Part shown: positions 2,339-20,608 of the stretch, piece after piece
Numbering within the stretch: the stretch's first letter is position 1
Layout of the letters: each line of letters starts with the position of its first letter
DNA from: Promethearchaeota archaeon
GTDB lineage: Archaea; Asgardarchaeota; Lokiarchaeia; Sigyniarchaeales; SOKP01
Reading direction: 5' to 3'
NCBI GenBank assembly: GCA_016839915.1
Contig: JAEOTH010000016.1
Coordinates: forward strand, 1-43,259
DNA length: 43,259 nt
Translations under genes and position numbers: made by a program
Notes under the pieces: model-generated
The model's database searches: none
Seen by the model: only the letters and a program-made list of their open reading frames with translations
What the model was told of the DNA's origin: nothing

Positions 2339-3766
2339 TTACATTAATTTTTCCCATCGTGTTCCTTCTGGTCCATCTTCAATTATTATTCCCGTTTCTC
2401 TTAGTTTATTTCTAATTTTATCACTAATTTCGTAATTTTTATCTTTTCTTGCCTTATCGCGGATTTCTATAATAATATCCATTAATTCATTTAATTTAAT
2501 ATCGGCGTTTTCTTCTTTTTTTGTGAAATCCAGGCCAAAGATCCCGAGAAGTTCAAGTAAAGTTTCCCGCGCTTTCAAAAGAATTTCTTTCTTGTTATCT
2601 AAGGAACTATTAATTTTTTTTATAAATTCATAAATTGCAGCAAGAGCTTTTGGATTGTTGAAATCATCATCCAATGCCTTCTCAAAATCTTCTCTCACCA
2701 ATTTTATTTCACCTTCAAGGGTATTTTCCCTTCCACCCTGGGATTGGGTAATTAAATTTAGGCAATTTCTTATTTTTGCTACGTTATTTTTAGCATTTTC
2801 AATAACGTCTGGATTCCAATCAACGGCGGACCTATAATGCGCAGATACAAGTCCCATTCGCACAATAAGACCACCATGTTCATTAATTAATTCACGAGCA
2901 GTAACATAATTTCCAAGGCTTTTACTCATTTTTTTGCTATTTAAGGTAATAAACTCAGCATGCATCCAATAATTTACAAATTTTTTTCCAGTAACAGATT
3001 CCGACTGTGCGATTTCATTTGGATGGTGAGTAGGGATGTGGTCAATTCCGCCACCATGGATATCTAATGTATCTCCTAAATATTTCATACCCATTACTGA
3101 ACACTCAAGATGCCAACCAGGATAGCCCTCACCCCAAGGAGAATTCCATCGCATCATATGCATTTGATCTCCCTTTCGTGCATTCAACCACAGTGCGAAA
3201 TCAAAATAATTCTTTTTCAATGGATCTTGGTCTACACGTGCTCTTGCTTTTTCTTCATCTAGTTTTAGCTTCGCAAGTTTCCCATAATCCTTAAATTTAG
3301 TTGTATCATAATAGACATTTCCTTGCACTTCATAAGCATAGCCTTTTTCTAGTAAAATTTCAATTATTTCAATCATATCAGGGATAAGCGCTGTAGCTCT
3401 TGGAGATATATTCGGTCTTTGAATATTTAAATCATCAATAACCTGCCAATACTCTTGAATTTGCTTATCGACAAGCTCCCAGGGATTAATTTTTTCTTCT
3501 TTTGCCCTCTTTTCAATTTTATCTTCTCCTTGGTCAGCATCATCAGTTAAGTGACCGACGTCAGTGAAATTTTGAACATGAAATACATTATAGCCTTTGT
3601 ATCGGAGGTATCTGATAACCACGTCCCAAGAACTATAAGTTCTAGCATTTCCAATATGCACATCATCATAAACAGTCTGACCACACGTGTAGATTCTTAC
3701 TCGACCTTCTTCTAAAGGTTTAAATAGTTCCTTTTGCCGAGTCATAGTATTATAGATTTTAAGCAT
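2339..3766 (-). CDS. cysS: Cysteinyl-tRNA synthetase
   Basis: This 475-residue class Ia synthetase charges tRNA(Cys). The HIGH motif is HIGN (residues 37-40) and the KMSKS motif is intact at 279-283. Zinc ligands typical of CysRS are visible: C28 in TCGQT, C222 in HLECS, and the HHPNE segment at 247-251. Length is normal for the family, about 460-480. The start MLKIYNTMTR is the standard N-terminus. It lies 76 bases downstream of ileS on the same strand, so the two may be cotranscribed. Confidence 0.96.
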   Translation of the reverse strand: MLKIYNTMTRQKELFKPLEEGRVRIYTCGQTVYDDVHIGNARTYSSWDVVIRYLRYKGYNVFHVQNFTDVGHLTDDADQGEDKIEKRAKEEKINPWELVDKQIQEYWQVIDDLNIQRPNISPRATALIPDMIEIIEILLEKGYAYEVQGNVYYDTTKFKDYGKLAKLKLDEEKARARVDQDPLKKNYFDFALWLNARKGDQMHMMRWNSPWGEGYPGWHLECSVMGMKYLGDTLDIHGGGIDHIPTHHPNEIAQSESVTGKKFVNYWMHAEFITLNSKKMSKSLGNYVTARELINEHGGLIVRMGLVSAHYRSAVDWNPDVIENAKNNVAKIRNCLNLITQSQGGRENTLEGEIKLVREDFEKALDDDFNNPKALAAIYEFIKKINSSLDNKKEILLKARETLLELLGIFGLDFTKKEENADIKLNELMDIIIEIRDKARKDKNYEISDKIRNKLRETGIIIEDGPEGTRWEKLM

Positions 3767-7226: not shown

Positions 7227-7676
7227 TTGCTAAAAAATGGTGATTTTTTGAAAAGTCTCAATACAAAGGTTAGAAATATTATTATTGGAAAAATAGAACC
7301 TAATGAAGATTTGATTAGCGCAATCCTAGATATTGTAAGGAAGTATGAGATTAGATCAGGAATAATAACCTGTATAGGAGCGTTAAAAAAATTCACGATT
7401 GGTTTTTATAATGTTAATACTAAAAATTATAAAATGGAAACTTTTAATGAAAACGTGGAATTAATAAGCGGTATTGGAAATATTTCATATAAAGAGAATG
7501 AACCGCTGATTCACTTACATGTAACTTTAGGTAGAAGTGATTATTCTTTAATAGGGGGGCATTTAAGTCAACCAAGTATAATCTCTGTAACTTGTGAGGT
7601 TAAAATTTTTGAGATTGATTATAAATTAAAGCGTGTTAATGATCCTCAATTTGATCTATCACTTTTAGATATATAA
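7227..7676 (+). CDS. PPC (DUF296) domain protein
   Basis: This small protein (up to 149 residues) is a single PPC/DUF296 domain, the fold found in plant AT-hook proteins and as stand-alone proteins in prokaryotes. The family core is clear: the GxIxPxEDL-type opening, the segment GNISYKENEPLIHLHVTLG with its HLH residues, and the following SLIGGHL. The longest frame starts at TTG 7227, but TTG 7248 has a GGTGAT just upstream and gives the usual short N-terminus (MKSLNTKVRN), so the true protein is probably 142 residues. It lies one base before the next GTPase gene, so they are very likely cotranscribed. DNA binding is known for plant relatives only; the role here is unknown. Confidence 0.78.
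   Translation: MLKNGDFLKSLNTKVRNIIIGKIEPNEDLISAILDIVRKYEIRSGIITCIGALKKFTIGFYNVNTKNYKMETFNENVELISGIGNISYKENEPLIHLHVTLGRSDYSLIGGHLSQPSIISVTCEVKIFEIDYKLKRVNDPQFDLSLLDI
7239..7244 (+). promoter_or_regulatory. Shine-Dalgarno-like GGTGAT before an internal TTG start
   Basis: GGTGAT matches the complement of the archaeal 16S rRNA 3' end. It sits 3 bases before the in-frame TTG at 7248, which favours that codon over the TTG at 7227 as the true start of the PPC-domain gene. Confidence 0.4.
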
Positions 7677-7677
7677 A

Positions 7678-8253
7678 ATGAGTCGATATATAATGGGAGA
7701 TATTGAGAAAAGAGAATGGGCATTGAAGTTAGCAGTATTAGGAGACCCTGCAGTAGGGAAAACTTCATTAATCGATAAATATATTACTGATTCCTTTAGA
7801 GAAAATTACCAACCAACTCTAGGTGTTAATATTGTTTCTAAGGATATAAGAATTGAAGAAATCAATTCCAAAATACGTCTTTTATTATGGGACATAGCTG
7901 GGCAGCACAAATACGAGCTAACACGTCAATCATTTTTCCAGGGTTGCGTTGGAGCACTACTAGTTTATGATATGACACGTTATTCTACATTTGAGCAAAT
8001 AAGCCTAAAGTGGCTAGAGGATTTTAAAAATTTTAGCAGACCCGATGGAGTTTATATTTTAATTGGTAATAAATCGGATTTAACTGATTCAATCAGAGTA
8101 TCATCTGAAGAAGGAAAATCCTTGTCTCAAAAGATTAATGCAGCTGAATTTATTGAAACAAGCGCAAAATATGGAAAAAACGTCGAGAAGGCATTTAAAA
8201 AATTAGTTCTGCATATTTTAAGGAAAAGTGGAGTTAAATTTGAAATAAATTAA
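7678..8253 (+). CDS. Rab/Ras-like small GTPase
   Basis: This 191-residue protein is one small GTPase domain with all motifs: P-loop GDPAVGKT at 22-29, switch-I Thr at 47, DIAGQ at 72-76 (catalytic Gln present), NKSD at 131-134 and TSAK at 161-164. The C-terminus (VKFEIN) has no cysteine, so Rab-style prenylation is not possible. A second ATG at codon 6 could be the start. It closely resembles the GTPase at 8989, sharing the FQGC, GALLVYD, TRYSTF and YILIGNK segments, so the two look like a tandem duplication. It is translationally close to the PPC gene and followed by a V4R-like gene. Confidence 0.95.
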   Translation: MSRYIMGDIEKREWALKLAVLGDPAVGKTSLIDKYITDSFRENYQPTLGVNIVSKDIRIEEINSKIRLLLWDIAGQHKYELTRQSFFQGCVGALLVYDMTRYSTFEQISLKWLEDFKNFSRPDGVYILIGNKSDLTDSIRVSSEEGKSLSQKINAAEFIETSAKYGKNVEKAFKKLVLHILRKSGVKFEIN

Positions 8254-8299: not shown

Positions 8300-8866
8300 A
8301 TGATTGGAGATTATAAAGGATTTGTAAAAAATAAAGTTGTTGTGGCGCTTCTTCAAGCCTATCATGATATCCTTGATTATGATGGAATGAAATCAATTTT
8401 AAGAGAAGCGGGAATGATCCACATAAAAGATATAAGAGATAAAGACCCAAATGATACGTTAGATTTTTTTTCTTTTAAGAAAATCATTTCTGCTCAAAAT
8501 TGTTTGTTATATGATTCTTCTGATCTCCTTTTTGAAATTGGCAAAAAATTCTCATTCTATTTATTCCCTTTCGGTAAAAGTTTTGAAGAAATTATTAATG
8601 AAATAAATTCCTCAATAACTACAGATTGGAAGGTTAAAATTACTGAAAATAATGAACAAGAAATCACTATAAATGTTCAAAGATGTATCTTTTGTTCTGA
8701 ATTTGGAGTTCCTTGTGATTTATTTAAAGGATTCTTAGTTAATTCATTACAAAAATCTTTACCATCAGAACAAGGGGTTATTTATGAAAGAGAGATTGAA
8801 AATGTAAAAGATCCTCAGCATAATAGCTTTAAATTTATTTTGAAAATTGACAAAAGTATTAAATAA
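8300..8866 (+). CDS. V4R-like domain protein between two small GTPases
   Basis: This 188-residue soluble protein has an N-terminal helical part and a C-terminal alpha/beta part. The second half resembles the V4R (4-vinyl-reductase) fold: a strand ending in RCIFCSEF (C129, C132), then C139 followed by LFKGFLVNSL, the place where V4R proteins have a cysteine and a Gly-rich helix, then a final EREIE...FKFIL strand pair. The last conserved V4R cysteines are missing, so the match is partial. V4R domains bind small ligands or metals, and the same fold forms Bet3 subunits of TRAPP. It is 46 bases after one GTPase gene and 122 before its paralogue. The fold call is tentative. Confidence 0.5.
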   Translation: MIGDYKGFVKNKVVVALLQAYHDILDYDGMKSILREAGMIHIKDIRDKDPNDTLDFFSFKKIISAQNCLLYDSSDLLFEIGKKFSFYLFPFGKSFEEIINEINSSITTDWKVKITENNEQEITINVQRCIFCSEFGVPCDLFKGFLVNSLQKSLPSEQGVIYEREIENVKDPQHNSFKFILKIDKSIK

Positions 8867-8988: not shown

Positions 8989-9543
8989 ATGACAACCAAA
9001 GAAGCTAATTTCGAACGTGAATTTGTATATAAAATCGTTATACTTGGAGATGCTGCTGTAGGTAAGACATCTTTGATAAATCAGTTCGTAGAAGGCTCTT
9101 TTAATGAAGATTACAAGCCAACATTAGGTGCTAATATAGTTCGTAAAGATGTTAACTTGAATAGCACAAAAGTTCGACTAATAATGTGGGATTTAGCTGG
9201 GCAAGAAAAATATCGCGTTGTTCGTAGTATGTATTTCCAAGGTTGTCAAGGTGCTTTACTTGTTTATGATGTTACTCGTTATAGCACATTTGATAATGTT
9301 AATTCAAAATGGTTGCGAGATTTCAAAAAACATGTTAAGAAAGAAGGTGCTTATATTTTGATTGGTAATAAAAAAGATTTAAAAGATCAAAGAGCAGTCA
9401 CTACCGAAAGAGGTGAGGAAATCGCCCAAAAAATTAAGGCTAGCCACTTCATTGAAACTAGCGCGAAATTAGGAGAAAATATTGAAAAAGCATTTTCACT
9501 TCTTGTAAACCAAATCTTAAGCAATCATGGGGTAGAGATTTAA
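8989..9543 (+). CDS. Rab/Ras-like small GTPase
   Basis: This 184-residue single-domain GTPase has P-loop GDAAVGKT at 20-27, switch-I Thr at 45, DLAGQ at 68-72, NKKD at 127-130 and TSAK at 157-160. The catalytic Gln equivalent is present. The protein ends in HGVEI without a C-terminal cysteine, so membrane attachment by prenylation is unlikely. It is the closest relative in the window of the GTPase at 7678 and probably arose by tandem duplication, with the V4R-like gene lying between. A TATA-like element at about -33 suggests it can be transcribed on its own. Its cellular partner is unknown. Confidence 0.95.
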   Translation: MTTKEANFEREFVYKIVILGDAAVGKTSLINQFVEGSFNEDYKPTLGANIVRKDVNLNSTKVRLIMWDLAGQEKYRVVRSMYFQGCQGALLVYDVTRYSTFDNVNSKWLRDFKKHVKKEGAYILIGNKKDLKDQRAVTTERGEEIAQKIKASHFIETSAKLGENIEKAFSLLVNQILSNHGVEI

Positions 9544-15996: not shown

Positions 15997-16632
15997 ATGC
16001 CAAATGGAATTTTTCTGATACGGTGGGATGAGGTTGAGGGGGGTATTATTTATTTGAAATACCCTGAGAACTTAGAGATCCCAAATCCAGTAGTTCAACA
16101 AATAACAATAACACATAATTTTACTGAATCTTATATTATTACAGAAGAGAAAAATTGGAACTCTGTTTCTTATTATAATGAAAATAAAGAGATTATAATT
16201 GTACTAGTTTTAAGCAAATTTGATGATGGTAATGATTACATAGAAATCCTCGAAAAATTTAATCAAGAAATTGATAAATTAACGGAAGAAGAGAAATTGA
16301 GAGAAAACCTAGAAGCAATGTTTCATATCAGTTTAGATGCTTTTAGGACCACTGATGAGGTAATAACAAAATTAAGCAATGAGGTTGCGTATTTAAAAAC
16401 AAGAGAGTATGATTATGAAGTAAAATTTGATTTTATCACAAAATCTAATCACTTACCCGTTAAAAGTAAAATTTTATTCTTATTAACAGTAAAAGACTTT
16501 GTGAAACTGGAAGAGTTTGAAAAAGTGATAAACACAAAAAAACAATGGCTTCTTAGTGTCCTTAAAACACTCATGAAAAATGAAATTGTAGGATATAACT
16601 CTGAAAATGATTCTTATTATTTGAGAGTATGA
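15997..16632 (+). CDS. Putative sensor protein: longin/profilin-like N-terminus plus winged helix
   Basis: This 211-residue protein is not a known enzyme. Its N-terminal half opens with GIFLIRWDEVEGGIIYLKYPE, a pattern I associate with longin/roadblock-like proteins in Asgard archaea, and continues with alternating strands and a long helix to about residue 140. The C-terminal 60 residues (KSKILFLLTVKDFVKLEEF to the end) read as a winged-helix domain: three helices, then the hairpin GYNSENDSYYLRV. Its stop overlaps the acylphosphatase start by four bases (ATGA), so the two are translationally coupled. Fold assignments are inferred from pattern only. Confidence 0.5.
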   Translation: MPNGIFLIRWDEVEGGIIYLKYPENLEIPNPVVQQITITHNFTESYIITEEKNWNSVSYYNENKEIIIVLVLSKFDDGNDYIEILEKFNQEIDKLTEEEKLRENLEAMFHISLDAFRTTDEVITKLSNEVAYLKTREYDYEVKFDFITKSNHLPVKSKILFLLTVKDFVKLEEFEKVINTKKQWLLSVLKTLMKNEIVGYNSENDSYYLRV

Positions 16633-18336: not shown

Positions 18337-18876
18337 TTAAGAGGTAGGAGAGATATGATCCAAAATTTGTTTAGTTAATTGTATAAAAGCCTGTTCAACA
18401 TTTTGCCCAGTTTTAGCTGAAGTAATAATCAAACCCATGTTATTAGTATTAGCGTACTCTTTTGATTCTCGTTCAGTTATTTTAATTTGTTTTTTTAAAT
18501 CAGATTTGTTTCCTATTAATATTATAGGTGCATCATTCCTCGCTTCTCTAAAGCTTTGTGTCCAATCATTAAGTTTTTCAAAAGATTTATTTACAGTCAT
18601 ATCATAGACTAACAATGCTCCATTTGCACCTTCCAAGTACAACTTTCTTAGAGACTTAAACGATTCTTGTCCACCTAGATCCCAGATTTGAGCAGATACA
18701 CTGCCATATTCATCAATTTCCATATCTTTTTTTAAAAGATTCACTCCTAGAGTACTTTTATAATTTTCTCTGAATTTATTTTCAATAAATCTATAAACTA
18801 ATGATGTTTTTCCCACATTTGCTTCTCCAAGAAGTACCAATTTTATAATATATGACATCTGATAAACCCTTTTCAT
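18337..18876 (-). CDS. Rab/Ras-like small GTPase
   Basis: This 179-residue GTPase has GEANVGKTS at 17-25, switch-I Thr at 42, DLGGQ at 66-70, NKSD at 123-126 and TSAK at 152-155. DLGGQ rather than DTAGQ is a feature shared with Arf-like and other archaeal GTPases. There is no C-terminal cysteine (it ends HISPTS) and no amphipathic N-terminal helix. The Met at codon 7 (MSYIIKLVLLGE) gives a more usual start. It lies 207 bases downstream of the V4R gene on the same strand and upstream of TBP, so it may be a separate transcript. Confidence 0.94.
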   Translation of the reverse strand: MKRVYQMSYIIKLVLLGEANVGKTSLVYRFIENKFRENYKSTLGVNLLKKDMEIDEYGSVSAQIWDLGGQESFKSLRKLYLEGANGALLVYDMTVNKSFEKLNDWTQSFREARNDAPIILIGNKSDLKKQIKITERESKEYANTNNMGLIITSAKTGQNVEQAFIQLTKQILDHISPTS

Positions 18877-19083
18877 TAATTTGGTTTAATAAATTAATTA
18901 AATAGTAATTTTCAATATTATGGTTATACCATAATAAGACTTACAATTTTATTTTATATTCAAAATATAGTGTATACTTATTAATAATTTTCTAATTATC
19001 CTCTAAAATTGTATAAGGAATTTTATTAATCTCAAAACATCATACTAAAAAAGTTATAACAAAAAAAATGATTTTTACTTACT

Positions 19084-19569
19084 TTAATCTGTTTTCTGAA
19101 AAACTATCATAAACTCACAGTAATTCTCACCCGTTTGTAGACTACATCCAAGTTCTTGAGCAAAACAGTTGCGATCGCTTAATTTCTCTACAACTCCTGC
19201 TAATAAACCTGCTTCAAATGAGCAAAAACTTCCCGATGTTTTAATTCCTTTTTTAATTAAATCTCTTATAGATGAATGATCTTTTAATTTTAATTGTACT
19301 ATTTCCTCTGTACTTTCAGTGATCTCAACTGCTCCAAGATTGAACTCCCTAATAATGCGTTCTATTTCATTAGGAATTTGAGTTAAATCCTTAACCGGTT
19401 TAATTTTTAAGGTACTTCCTAATTCATGTCCTAAATAGTAGAAAATTGCTTCTAATTGGTGTCCTAAAGCTAATAAGGCACCAACTTTCATATCACCAAT
19501 ATCTTTTTTTTCTTTTAAATTCTTTCTCATTTGAGCGAGAATTTTGGAGAGTAATTGCCTATCCATCAA
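19084..19569 (-). CDS. V4R (4-vinyl-reductase) domain protein
   Basis: This 161-residue protein has an N-terminal part of about 55 helical residues and a V4R domain. The diagnostic end is clear: GSFCSFEAGLLAGVVEKL (C116 and the Gly-rich helix), CFAQELGCSLQTGENYCEFMIVF (C135, C142, C151). These cysteines form the small-molecule or metal site of V4R proteins. The fold is shared with Bet3 subunits of the TRAPP Rab-exchange complex. It follows the thioredoxin-like gene by 46 bases, which in turn follows a GTPase gene by 3, so it belongs to a GTPase operon. Ligand and partner are unknown. Confidence 0.82.
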   Translation of the reverse strand: MMDRQLLSKILAQMRKNLKEKKDIGDMKVGALLALGHQLEAIFYYLGHELGSTLKIKPVKDLTQIPNEIERIIREFNLGAVEITESTEEIVQLKLKDHSSIRDLIKKGIKTSGSFCSFEAGLLAGVVEKLSDRNCFAQELGCSLQTGENYCEFMIVFQKTD

Positions 19570-19615
19570 ATTTCACTTCTTTTTTTAATCTTTTTTATAA
19601 AATTTTTCATATTTT

Positions 19616-19915
19616 TTATATTTTAACTGAAGATATAAACGCATATAGTATTGCATCGATAATTTCTTCTTCTTGAATATTTACAGATAATCTCTTGTCT
19701 GCGATAATTAATGTGGGAATTGATGTAATACGATAATCTTGTGTTAACTGACGATTTTCTTCTAAATCAATTGAGATTTTTTCTATTCGTAGTTTTTTAC
19801 CGAATAAAGAAATATTTATTCTTTTTAACTTTTCTTCAACCGGGATACAAGGTGCACAGTGATTTGACGAGAAAAATAAAATCCGTGGATATCCTTGATT
19901 GATATCATCATACAT
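19616..19915 (-). CDS. Small thioredoxin-fold protein
   Basis: This 99-residue protein has a thioredoxin fold: a strand RILFFSSNHC leading to the active-site pair C20-A-P-C23, then a long helix, a strand KISIDLEEN, and the cis-proline loop ITSIPTLII (Pro67). It should act in thiol-disulfide exchange. The CAPC pair differs from the usual CGPC. No signal peptide is present, so it is cytosolic. It starts 3 bases after the GTPase gene stop, which indicates cotranscription, and precedes the V4R gene. It is shorter than full thioredoxins (about 105-110). Confidence 0.85.
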   Translation of the reverse strand: MYDDINQGYPRILFFSSNHCAPCIPVEEKLKRINISLFGKKLRIEKISIDLEENRQLTQDYRITSIPTLIIADKRLSVNIQEEEIIDAILYAFISSVKI

Positions 19916-19918
19916 TTT

Positions 19919-20458
19919 CTAATCTTCTTTATATTTATTATATAAGGTTTTTATAATTGCTTGGAATGCTTCGTAAACACCAGTTCCAGTCTTGGCAGAT
20001 GTCCTGTAATAACCTAAGAAATTCCTTTTTTCAATGATTTGCTTTACATTTTCATCTTCTAAATCATTTTCATTAATTAAATCAGTTTTATTACCAAACA
20101 ATACAATCGGGAGTTCTCCCGTATATTTTTTAATATCTTCATGCCAATCCATTATATGATTGAAACTTTCTTCGTCTGTATGGGAGAATACTATTATCGC
20201 GGCTTTACTTCCCTTATAAAAAGTAGGGCGCATGAAATCAAATTCCCGTTGTCCAGCAATGTCCCAAAAAAATAATTTGCAATTATCTCCGTTTATTTCT
20301 TCATCATATTTCGAAAACTGGGCTCCTAGTGTTTTAATATAATTCTTTTGGAAGCTACCTTGAGTATATTTCTTAATCAGGGAGGTCTTCCCTACCGCAC
20401 CATCACCAATTACAGTTATTTTGAATACAAATCCTTTAGAAACATCATCCTTTCCCAT
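19919..20458 (-). CDS. Rab/Ras-like small GTPase
   Basis: A single GTPase domain: IGDGAVGKTS P-loop, switch-I Thr in IKTLG, WDIAGQREF, FGNKTDL and RTSAKTG. The frame could extend nine bases to a GTG, but the ATG at 20458 is preceded by GTGATTTTA, whose GTGAT fits the ribosome-binding sequence, so I use 20458 (179 residues, starting MGKDDVSKGF). The end NKYKED lacks cysteine. In the region after G3, IIVFSHTDEESF replaces the usual VYD-T form. It heads an operon with the thioredoxin-fold and V4R genes. Confidence 0.94.
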   Translation of the reverse strand: MGKDDVSKGFVFKITVIGDGAVGKTSLIKKYTQGSFQKNYIKTLGAQFSKYDEEINGDNCKLFFWDIAGQREFDFMRPTFYKGSKAAIIVFSHTDEESFNHIMDWHEDIKKYTGELPIVLFGNKTDLINENDLEDENVKQIIEKRNFLGYYRTSAKTGTGVYEAFQAIIKTLYNKYKED

Positions 20459-20608
20459 TAAAATCACTTTGTTGATATTTTTCGTTTAATTCATGCTATT
20501 CATGAAATATATTTCAAACGTATACAATATTATTTCTTTATTTATTTTTATTTGTTATTATTTTATATTAATAATAACAAGTTCTATTAAATATTTATAT
20601 TGAGATTT

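Follow-up and report, generated by a model that had tools for sequence, protein, structure and literature searches.

Asgard genomes encode Rab-like GTPases by the dozen for which no regulators are known, and genome layout is said to hamper the matching of these GTPases to regulators (PMC10933270, a structural study). A locus in which a V4R protein is encoded among such GTPases raises the question of whether it specifies an archaeal counterpart of the transport protein particle (TRAPP), the Rab1 exchange factor of which Bet3/TRAPPC3 is a subunit, or a switch of another kind. The locus lies in a 43,259-nucleotide stretch of a Promethearchaeota archaeon (contig JAEOTH010000016.1; hereafter the window), to which all coordinates refer and in which genes were called from open reading frames (ORFs) and Pfam. 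Its minus strand carries genes for a Ras/Rab-like GTPase (GTPase-A), a thioredoxin-fold protein and a V4R protein (V4R1), separated by 3 and 46 bases, and 207 bases beyond V4R1 lies a further GTPase gene (GTPase 18337, or GTPase-B). ORFs, gap counts and Pfam concur on this arrangement, which a sequence-only reading of the window had described and had taken for a possible archaeal TRAPP-like module. Our analysis favours a dedicated GTPase switch, perhaps under redox control, over a fully formed TRAPP complex.

Relatives of V4R1 were found in 42 of the 58 genomes searched, its own genome counted. A V4R1 profile matched 74 of the 195 genomes of the phylum, with strong matches, among the families drawn, solely in f1 and f2 (f, G, C and L numbers are our labels for families, genomes, contigs and loci); no relatives were found on viral contigs. 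A scan of named genomes (Lokiarchaeota, Lokiarchaeia, Ca. Harpocratesius and Ca. Prometheoarchaeum, with CR_4 included) gave 69 V4R1 loci, of which 63 have at least 1100 bases upstream and were counted, the other 6 being omitted. At 62 of these 63 loci V4R1 is preceded on the same strand by a GTPase gene whose best match in the window is GTPase-A, at 62 a thioredoxin gene is close by, and at 61 the order GTPase-thioredoxin-V4R is kept. In CR_4 (L234) the GTPase and V4R1 genes overlap by 4 bases and the thioredoxin gene follows. At two loci (L063 and L064) the triplet genes are the only ones within 10 kb that match the window (BLASTP, expect value (E) 1e-5). The counterpart of GTPase 18337 behaves differently: at the 59 loci with room, it lies downstream on the same strand at 30, is inverted at 18 and is absent within 1300 bases at 11. 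Thus, it is a neighbour and not a member of the triplet, and the idea that it forms a fixed part of the operon had to be given up. The V4R1 frames of a few metagenome-assembled genomes (L212 in G022; G170; G173) contain a single internal stop.

The residues that would matter for a thiol-based function are also conserved. Four cysteines of V4R1 are nearly invariant (Cys116 in 70/70 aligned rows, Cys135 in 68/69, Cys142 in 69/69 and Cys151 in 68/68), and the thioredoxin-fold protein keeps its CxPC motif in 62/62 rows and Pro67 in 65/65, counted over those of the 65 rows that are not gapped at the position. GTPase-A, whose ORF opens with GTG at 20467 and has an in-frame ATG at 20458, contains a Ras-type G domain with G motifs conserved over 64 sequences. 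None of 63 orthologues has a cysteine in the last 10 residues, where prenylation cysteines would be expected. In a tree of 25 hand-chosen GTPases, which places GTPase-A among those 25 and not among all the GTPases of the genome, it clusters with the V4R1-linked GTPases of f2 and f3 with a support of 0.998.

V4R1 is one of several V4R proteins paired with a GTPase. On the plus strand, the sequence-only reading had recognised a second V4R-like gene (V4R2) amid two GTPase genes, GTPase 7678, 46 bases upstream, and GTPase 8989, 122 bases downstream; V4R2 proved to be a V4R protein by descent, and the pairing is kept across loci. Relatives of V4R2 occur in 40 of the 58 genomes (G042 has no match), and a same-strand GTPase gene follows within 1000 bases at 35 of the 37 loci with room, the misses being L078 and L086. 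This count omits L051 and L076, for want of room, as well as L084 and L085, in which the V4R2 ORF was not picked; by coordinates, the latter two have a GTPase gene 14 and 20 bases downstream of V4R2. At L079 to L083, which belong to families f4 to f7, the V4R2-GTPase gaps range from -4 to 30 bases, and at L079 to L085 only further small GTPases and weak synthetase cross-matches (L083 to L085) match the window beyond the V4R2 pair. The V4R2-linked GTPase of G054 finds GTPase 8989 as the best of 68 matches in this genome, only 0.5 bits over a GTPase on contig C192; in the reverse comparison the V4R2-linked GTPase comes first of 37 in G051 and only sixth or seventh of 87 in G054. GTPase 7678 groups with GTPase 8989 in the 25-GTPase tree.

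The third V4R gene of the genome (V4R3) directly follows a gene for an Arf-like GTPase that bears an extra N-terminal part. Loci were chosen by size and family, and 22 of the 27 relatives' loci were fetched, all 22 confirmed as homologous at E 1e-38 or better. V4R3 stands beside the Arf-like GTPase at 18 of the 22; three of the misses (L146, L153 and L158) have the contig end on the relevant side, and L164 is a real miss. The extra N-terminal part resembles a longin by eye only, Pfam assigning the Arf-like part alone, and was not retained as one. After this third V4R gene, an ORF at 5607-6140 of L087 (G000, contig C216) has no Pfam match and a C-terminal end that looks V4R-like by eye; it is possibly a divergent V4R protein. 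In family f8, finally, an operon of a GTPase gene, a gene for a protein of some 150 residues and one for a 203-residue V4R protein is clear at 7 of 8 loci; at L239 a GTPase gene is found at the equivalent place and the gene calls are ambiguous. The f8 middle gene (L237, L238 and L240 to L244) encodes a CPxC near its start in 7 of 7 cases, at position 45 in L238, where the ORF start is perhaps too far upstream; the one example scanned showed no Pfam or NCBIfam family over cut-off.

GTPase genes are common in these genomes, and the pairing was compared with what their density would produce. For a random gene, the expectation of finding a GTPase gene on either side and either strand within 400 or 1100 bases is about 4-7% (79 Ras-family matches in 3.65 Mb). 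The 64 other V4R genes of the same genomes served as a contrast group: a same-strand GTPase gene lies within 1100 bases upstream in 2 of the 56 with room, and on either side in 4 of 64 (L106, L118, L130 and L135). Against these values stand the 62/63, 35/37 and 18/22 of V4R1, V4R2 and V4R3, and GTPase density was rejected as the explanation. The data support a conserved V4R-GTPase pairing that spans several V4R families and exceeds the expectation from GTPase density. The sequence-only reading had named an adjacency rate at the level of that expectation as a refutation of its idea, and on this count it was not refuted.

The assignment of V4R1 and V4R2 to the V4R fold draws on profiles and models. 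V4R1 scores 26.2 bits with PF02830, under the Pfam cut-off of 31, and its orthologues in L066 (34.8 bits) and L070 (33.9 bits) are above it. The AlphaFold2 (AF2) model of V4R1 (mean predicted local distance difference test (pLDDT) score of 88.4) matched, in a Foldseek search, MJ1460 (6e-7), YslB, the phenol sensors MopR and PoxR, Bet3 (1sz7; 3.1e-6) and Thor-TRAPPC3 (7yh3; 2.4e-5), and aligned with 2j3t_A, of Bet3 fold, with template modelling (TM) scores of 0.64/0.65. Window V4R2 and its relatives in L077 and L083 had no PF02830 match in the Pfam scan. Its homologues L079, L081 and L082, from other families, exceed the V4R cut-off (45.7 to 62.4 bits), and the V4R2 and V4R1 profiles match each other (hhalign E 3e-6, probability 88); together these make V4R2 a V4R protein by descent. 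The V4R2 model (mean pLDDT of 89.9) has H-NOX as its nearest solved fold, followed by YslB, MJ1460 and TRAPPC3/Bet3, the last at E of about 0.1. V4R2 differs from H-NOX, however, in having no conserved haem-ligating histidine: only His174 reaches 60% conservation (26/38 rows), so that there is no sign of a haem ligand, and V4R2 was rejected as a haem H-NOX.

As to TRAPP itself, the part of the sequence-only reading that stood is the fold shared with Bet3; at the level of sequence and of the C-terminal tail the likeness failed, and no longin pair was recognised in the unit. A profile of 42 V4R1 sequences recovered no Bet3 chain up to E 1, its only meaningful match being MJ1460 (E 0.0023), and the V4R2 profile likewise found no Bet3, with Thor-TRAPPC3 (7yh3) as its sole match at an insignificant E of 0.16. 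No TRAPP Pfam match was obtained up to E 1. As a positive control, L253, a Thor-TRAPPC3 relative from family f8, found Thor-TRAPPC3 at 6e-23 and eukaryotic TRAPPC3 at 1e-7 with a single sequence, whereas V4R1 was rejected as a recognisable Bet3. L255 is 71% identical to L253, and at these two loci, to which the survey of that family was confined, no GTPase gene was found within 1.5 kb flanks. The catalytic site of TRAPP is made by two longins, and the C-terminal region of TRAPPC3 partly fills the core groove (PMC8204870). In the V4R1 model the last strand spans residues 150-157 of 161 and 4 residues follow, the C-terminal region beyond the fold, as found in TRAPPC3, being missing; nor was a longin recognised in the triplet with Pfam or NCBIfam. 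V4R1 may thus act on a GTPase in a TRAPP-like way, as at most a putative TRAPP subunit. The likeness to TRAPP consists of a V4R-type fold with a Rab-like GTPase nearby, and any exchange activity is putative. Both TRAPP core folds occur in one chain at L130, where a longin-V4R fusion (2989-3756) lies 194 bases from a same-strand gene for a 352-residue GTPase protein. V4R-roadblock fusions are encoded in other families of the class (L104 and L110 over cut-off; L099 with a roadblock match below it).

Two further described systems invite comparison. The Asgard TRAPPC3/V4R proteins and Thor-Rab (Tran et al., 2024; PMC10933270) share with our locus the V4R/TRAPP fold, four cysteines and Rab-like GTPases without C-terminal cysteines. 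Here, in contrast, three V4R families adjoin GTPase genes, a thioredoxin belongs to the unit and V4R1 is undetectable as TRAPPC3 by sequence. The zinc of Thor-TRAPPC3 is bound by four cysteines (PMC10933270); V4R1 agrees with it in the number of conserved cysteines. In MglA/MglB, too, a small GTPase of prokaryotes has a small regulator dedicated to it (PMC10933270), but the regulator fold is roadblock there and V4R here.

Of the relatives that we found for V4R1, the nearest are MJ1460 and, in its V4R half, the redox regulator MsvR. That half is the best NCBIfam match of V4R1 (39.5 bits, E 4.9e-10), with residues 31-155 of V4R1 aligned to model positions 118-236; the DNA-binding half of MsvR (model positions 1-117) had no match in the 161 residues of V4R1. 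In the V4R domain of MaMsvR the cysteines are at positions 206, 232 and 240 (PMC3729527). Their spacing, judged from position numbers and not from a direct alignment, is 26 and 8, and that of Cys116, Cys142 and Cys151 of V4R1 is 26 and 9. According to a review, the thioredoxin system of M. acetivorans reduces MsvR (PMC7278568). Thus, V4R1 shares with MsvR a V4R half and three similarly spaced cysteines, and has a thioredoxin gene next to its own where thioredoxin reduction is reported for MsvR; it differs in the missing DNA-binding half, in a fourth conserved cysteine (Cys135) and in its tie to a GTPase.

A second line of evidence for a link between thioredoxin and V4R came from the contrast group. 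The L097 gene (2992-4440) encodes a thioredoxin-V4R-V4R fusion, with a Thioredoxin_3 match of 34.4 bits (cut-off 24.8) and two V4R stretches at 97.6 bits; the profile of the window thioredoxin family matches its N-terminus at 58 bits, and both V4R domains, read by eye, have cysteines at the places of 116, 142 and 151. A search with the fusion protein matched 75 of the 195 genomes at E 1e-10 or better, among which are counted partial matches that lack the thioredoxin part, several of them in f26, as well as Loki loci with separate genes. In the latter, the thioredoxin and V4R1 genes, with intervening stops, are together covered end to end by the alignment of the fusion (for example in G196, query 9-297). 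Both domains are in one frame at 28 of the 30 best related loci (L287 to L316), the frame being unlocated by the gene picker in L290 and L306, and Pfam confirms both domains in five further fusions (L292, L296, L308, L305 and L313). The fusions, of about 480-590 residues, occur in several other Asgard families, suggesting that thioredoxin and V4R form an old unit. They have the same type of thioredoxin and V4R domain as the Loki triplet, but a single chain with two V4R domains and, within 1.5 kb flanks, a GTPase gene at 3 of 30 loci only. These three (L305, L307 and L313) are all from f21, with the GTPase gene downstream on the same strand (Ras scores of 172 and 179 bits for L305 and L313). 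Thioredoxin-V4R is therefore the wider unit; the GTPase is tied to it in the Lokis and in f21, and elsewhere not visibly. Among the literature titles and abstract openings surveyed, mostly open-access, no V4R-GTPase operon or thioredoxin-V4R fusion was described.

From the demonstrated gene content of the triplet, its conservation and spread, the conserved cysteines and CxPC motif, the fusions and the predicted folds, we infer that a thiol- or zinc-gated V4R1, served by its own thioredoxin, regulates a dedicated GTPase-A, the inference covering binding, redox control and the direction of the effect. We put its probability at roughly 0.48, and hold it tentatively. V4R1, which would probably be a homodimer, as reported for Thor-TRAPPC3 and MaMsvR, would be partnered with GTPase-A and regulate it. 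The conserved cysteines of V4R1 may form a thiol or zinc switch, which the thioredoxin encoded between the two could set or reset, and the state of V4R1 would then alter nucleotide exchange, hydrolysis or effector binding by GTPase-A, whose switch segments are at least 95% conserved over the 64 sequences, a point in favour of the proposal. The thioredoxin-V4R unit is split and tied to a GTPase in the Lokis and fused in other Asgard families, and V4R2 with GTPase 8989 is a second V4R-GTPase pair, without thioredoxin.

Several observations weigh against this proposal. Adjacency indicates common function, not binding, and the loci share descent, so that the counts are not independent; given this kinship, more weight attaches to how many distinct V4R families have different GTPases as partners. 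One V4R1 locus, the exception among the 63 (L212), has neither thioredoxin nor GTPase-A and a broken V4R1 frame. The MsvR match falls well short of the 220 bits that this model requires over its full length, and MJ1460 has His and Phe at the positions of Cys116 and Cys135. By analogy with Thor-TRAPPC3, the V4R1 cysteines could be a static zinc site. No thioredoxin gene is present at the V4R2, V4R3 and f8 loci, except at L078, where one lies roughly 3 kb off on the opposite strand and the GTPase gene is lacking too; redox control could thus not be general. Conversely, 27 of the 30 fusion loci show no GTPase gene within their 1.5 kb flanks, and thioredoxin-V4R needs no neighbouring GTPase.

Other explanations account for parts of the same evidence. 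V4R1 could sense a small molecule, its V4R domain binding a hydrophobic or aromatic ligand and signalling to the GTPase while the cysteines did no more than bind zinc and the thioredoxin worked at another point of the pathway. The fold matches to MopR and PoxR, that of V4R2 to H-NOX and the ligand binding proposed for Asgard TRAPPC3/V4R proteins (Tran et al., 2024; PMC10933270) would fit such a role, but it leaves both the thioredoxin gene beside V4R1 and the thioredoxin-V4R fusions elsewhere unexplained, and no ligand is known; we regard it as rather doubtful. It is unlikely, in our view, that V4R1 acts as Bet3/TRAPPC3, joins longins encoded elsewhere and exchanges GDP for GTP on GTPase-A. 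For this speak the fold in common with Bet3, the four cysteines, as reported for the zinc site of Thor-TRAPPC3 (PMC10933270), and the L130 fusion adjoining a GTPase gene; it is opposed by the profile searches, in which V4R1 failed where a Thor-TRAPPC3 relative succeeded, by the short tail in place of a groove-filling region, and by the need of catalysis for two longins, the gene at 15997 near the triplet offering a weak winged-helix hint only.

Quite unlikely is a mere co-expression, in which the genes serve the same condition and V4R and GTPase are never in contact. Operon membership fits contact and co-regulation alike, and most fusion loci have no GTPase gene in the fetched stretch; yet different V4R families pair with different GTPases, some with overlaps of 4 bases, and other V4R genes are mostly unpaired. 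Chance or general local synteny could draw on the 79 GTPase matches and on the many neighbours shared by loci of one family, but the triplet or the pair alone persists in L063, L064 and L079 to L085, and 62/63 against 4-7% makes this explanation very improbable.

The features discussed are collected in the table below. The V4R2 cluster contains the PCC/DUF296 gene at 27 of 30 loci of f1, the family to which the window belongs. A gene at 15997-16632 is found near V4R1 at 29 of the 69 named loci (flanks of up to 4 kb). Its N-terminal half looks like a longin by eye, making it a putative longin at most; Pfam, NCBIfam and a PDB profile search gave nothing beyond weak winged-helix or zipper hints, the winged-helix one at its C-terminal end.

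Table. Genes of the V4R1 and V4R2 clusters, with positions in the 43,259-nucleotide window.
Feature	Coordinates	Strand	Evidence or remark
GTPase-A, Ras/Rab-like small GTPase	19919-20467	minus	PF00071 153 bits; stable V4R1 partner
Thioredoxin-fold protein, CxPC motif	19616-19915	minus	Pfam Thioredoxin_2 30 bits
V4R1, V4R-domain protein, conserved Cys 116/135/142/151	19084-19569	minus	PF02830 26.2 bits
GTPase-B (GTPase 18337)	18337-18876	minus	neighbour of the triplet, unstable membership
V4R2, V4R/H-NOX-fold protein	8300-8866	plus	model, Foldseek, homologues, hhalign to V4R1
GTPase 8989, stably downstream of V4R2	8989-9543	plus	same-strand GTPase at 35/37 V4R2 loci with room
GTPase 7678, upstream of V4R2	7678-8253	plus	groups with the 8989 type in the tree
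PCC/DUF296-domain protein of the V4R2 cluster	7227-7676	plus	PF03479 108 bits; 27/30 f1 loci

It seems possible, although we would not call it likely, that Asgard archaea use V4R proteins quite generally to regulate small GTPases, as a class distinct from TRAPP and perhaps predating it, in which the thioredoxin-V4R branch links a Rab-like switch to redox. On this view, TRAPP with its V4R-fold subunits would be a late instance of an alliance between V4R proteins and GTPases known from archaea. The conserved V4R-GTPase pairs provide immediately testable candidate partners, and suggest how V4R-fold subunits could meet GTPases before TRAPP. The locus itself proposes redox as an input to an archaeal switch of the Ras superfamily.

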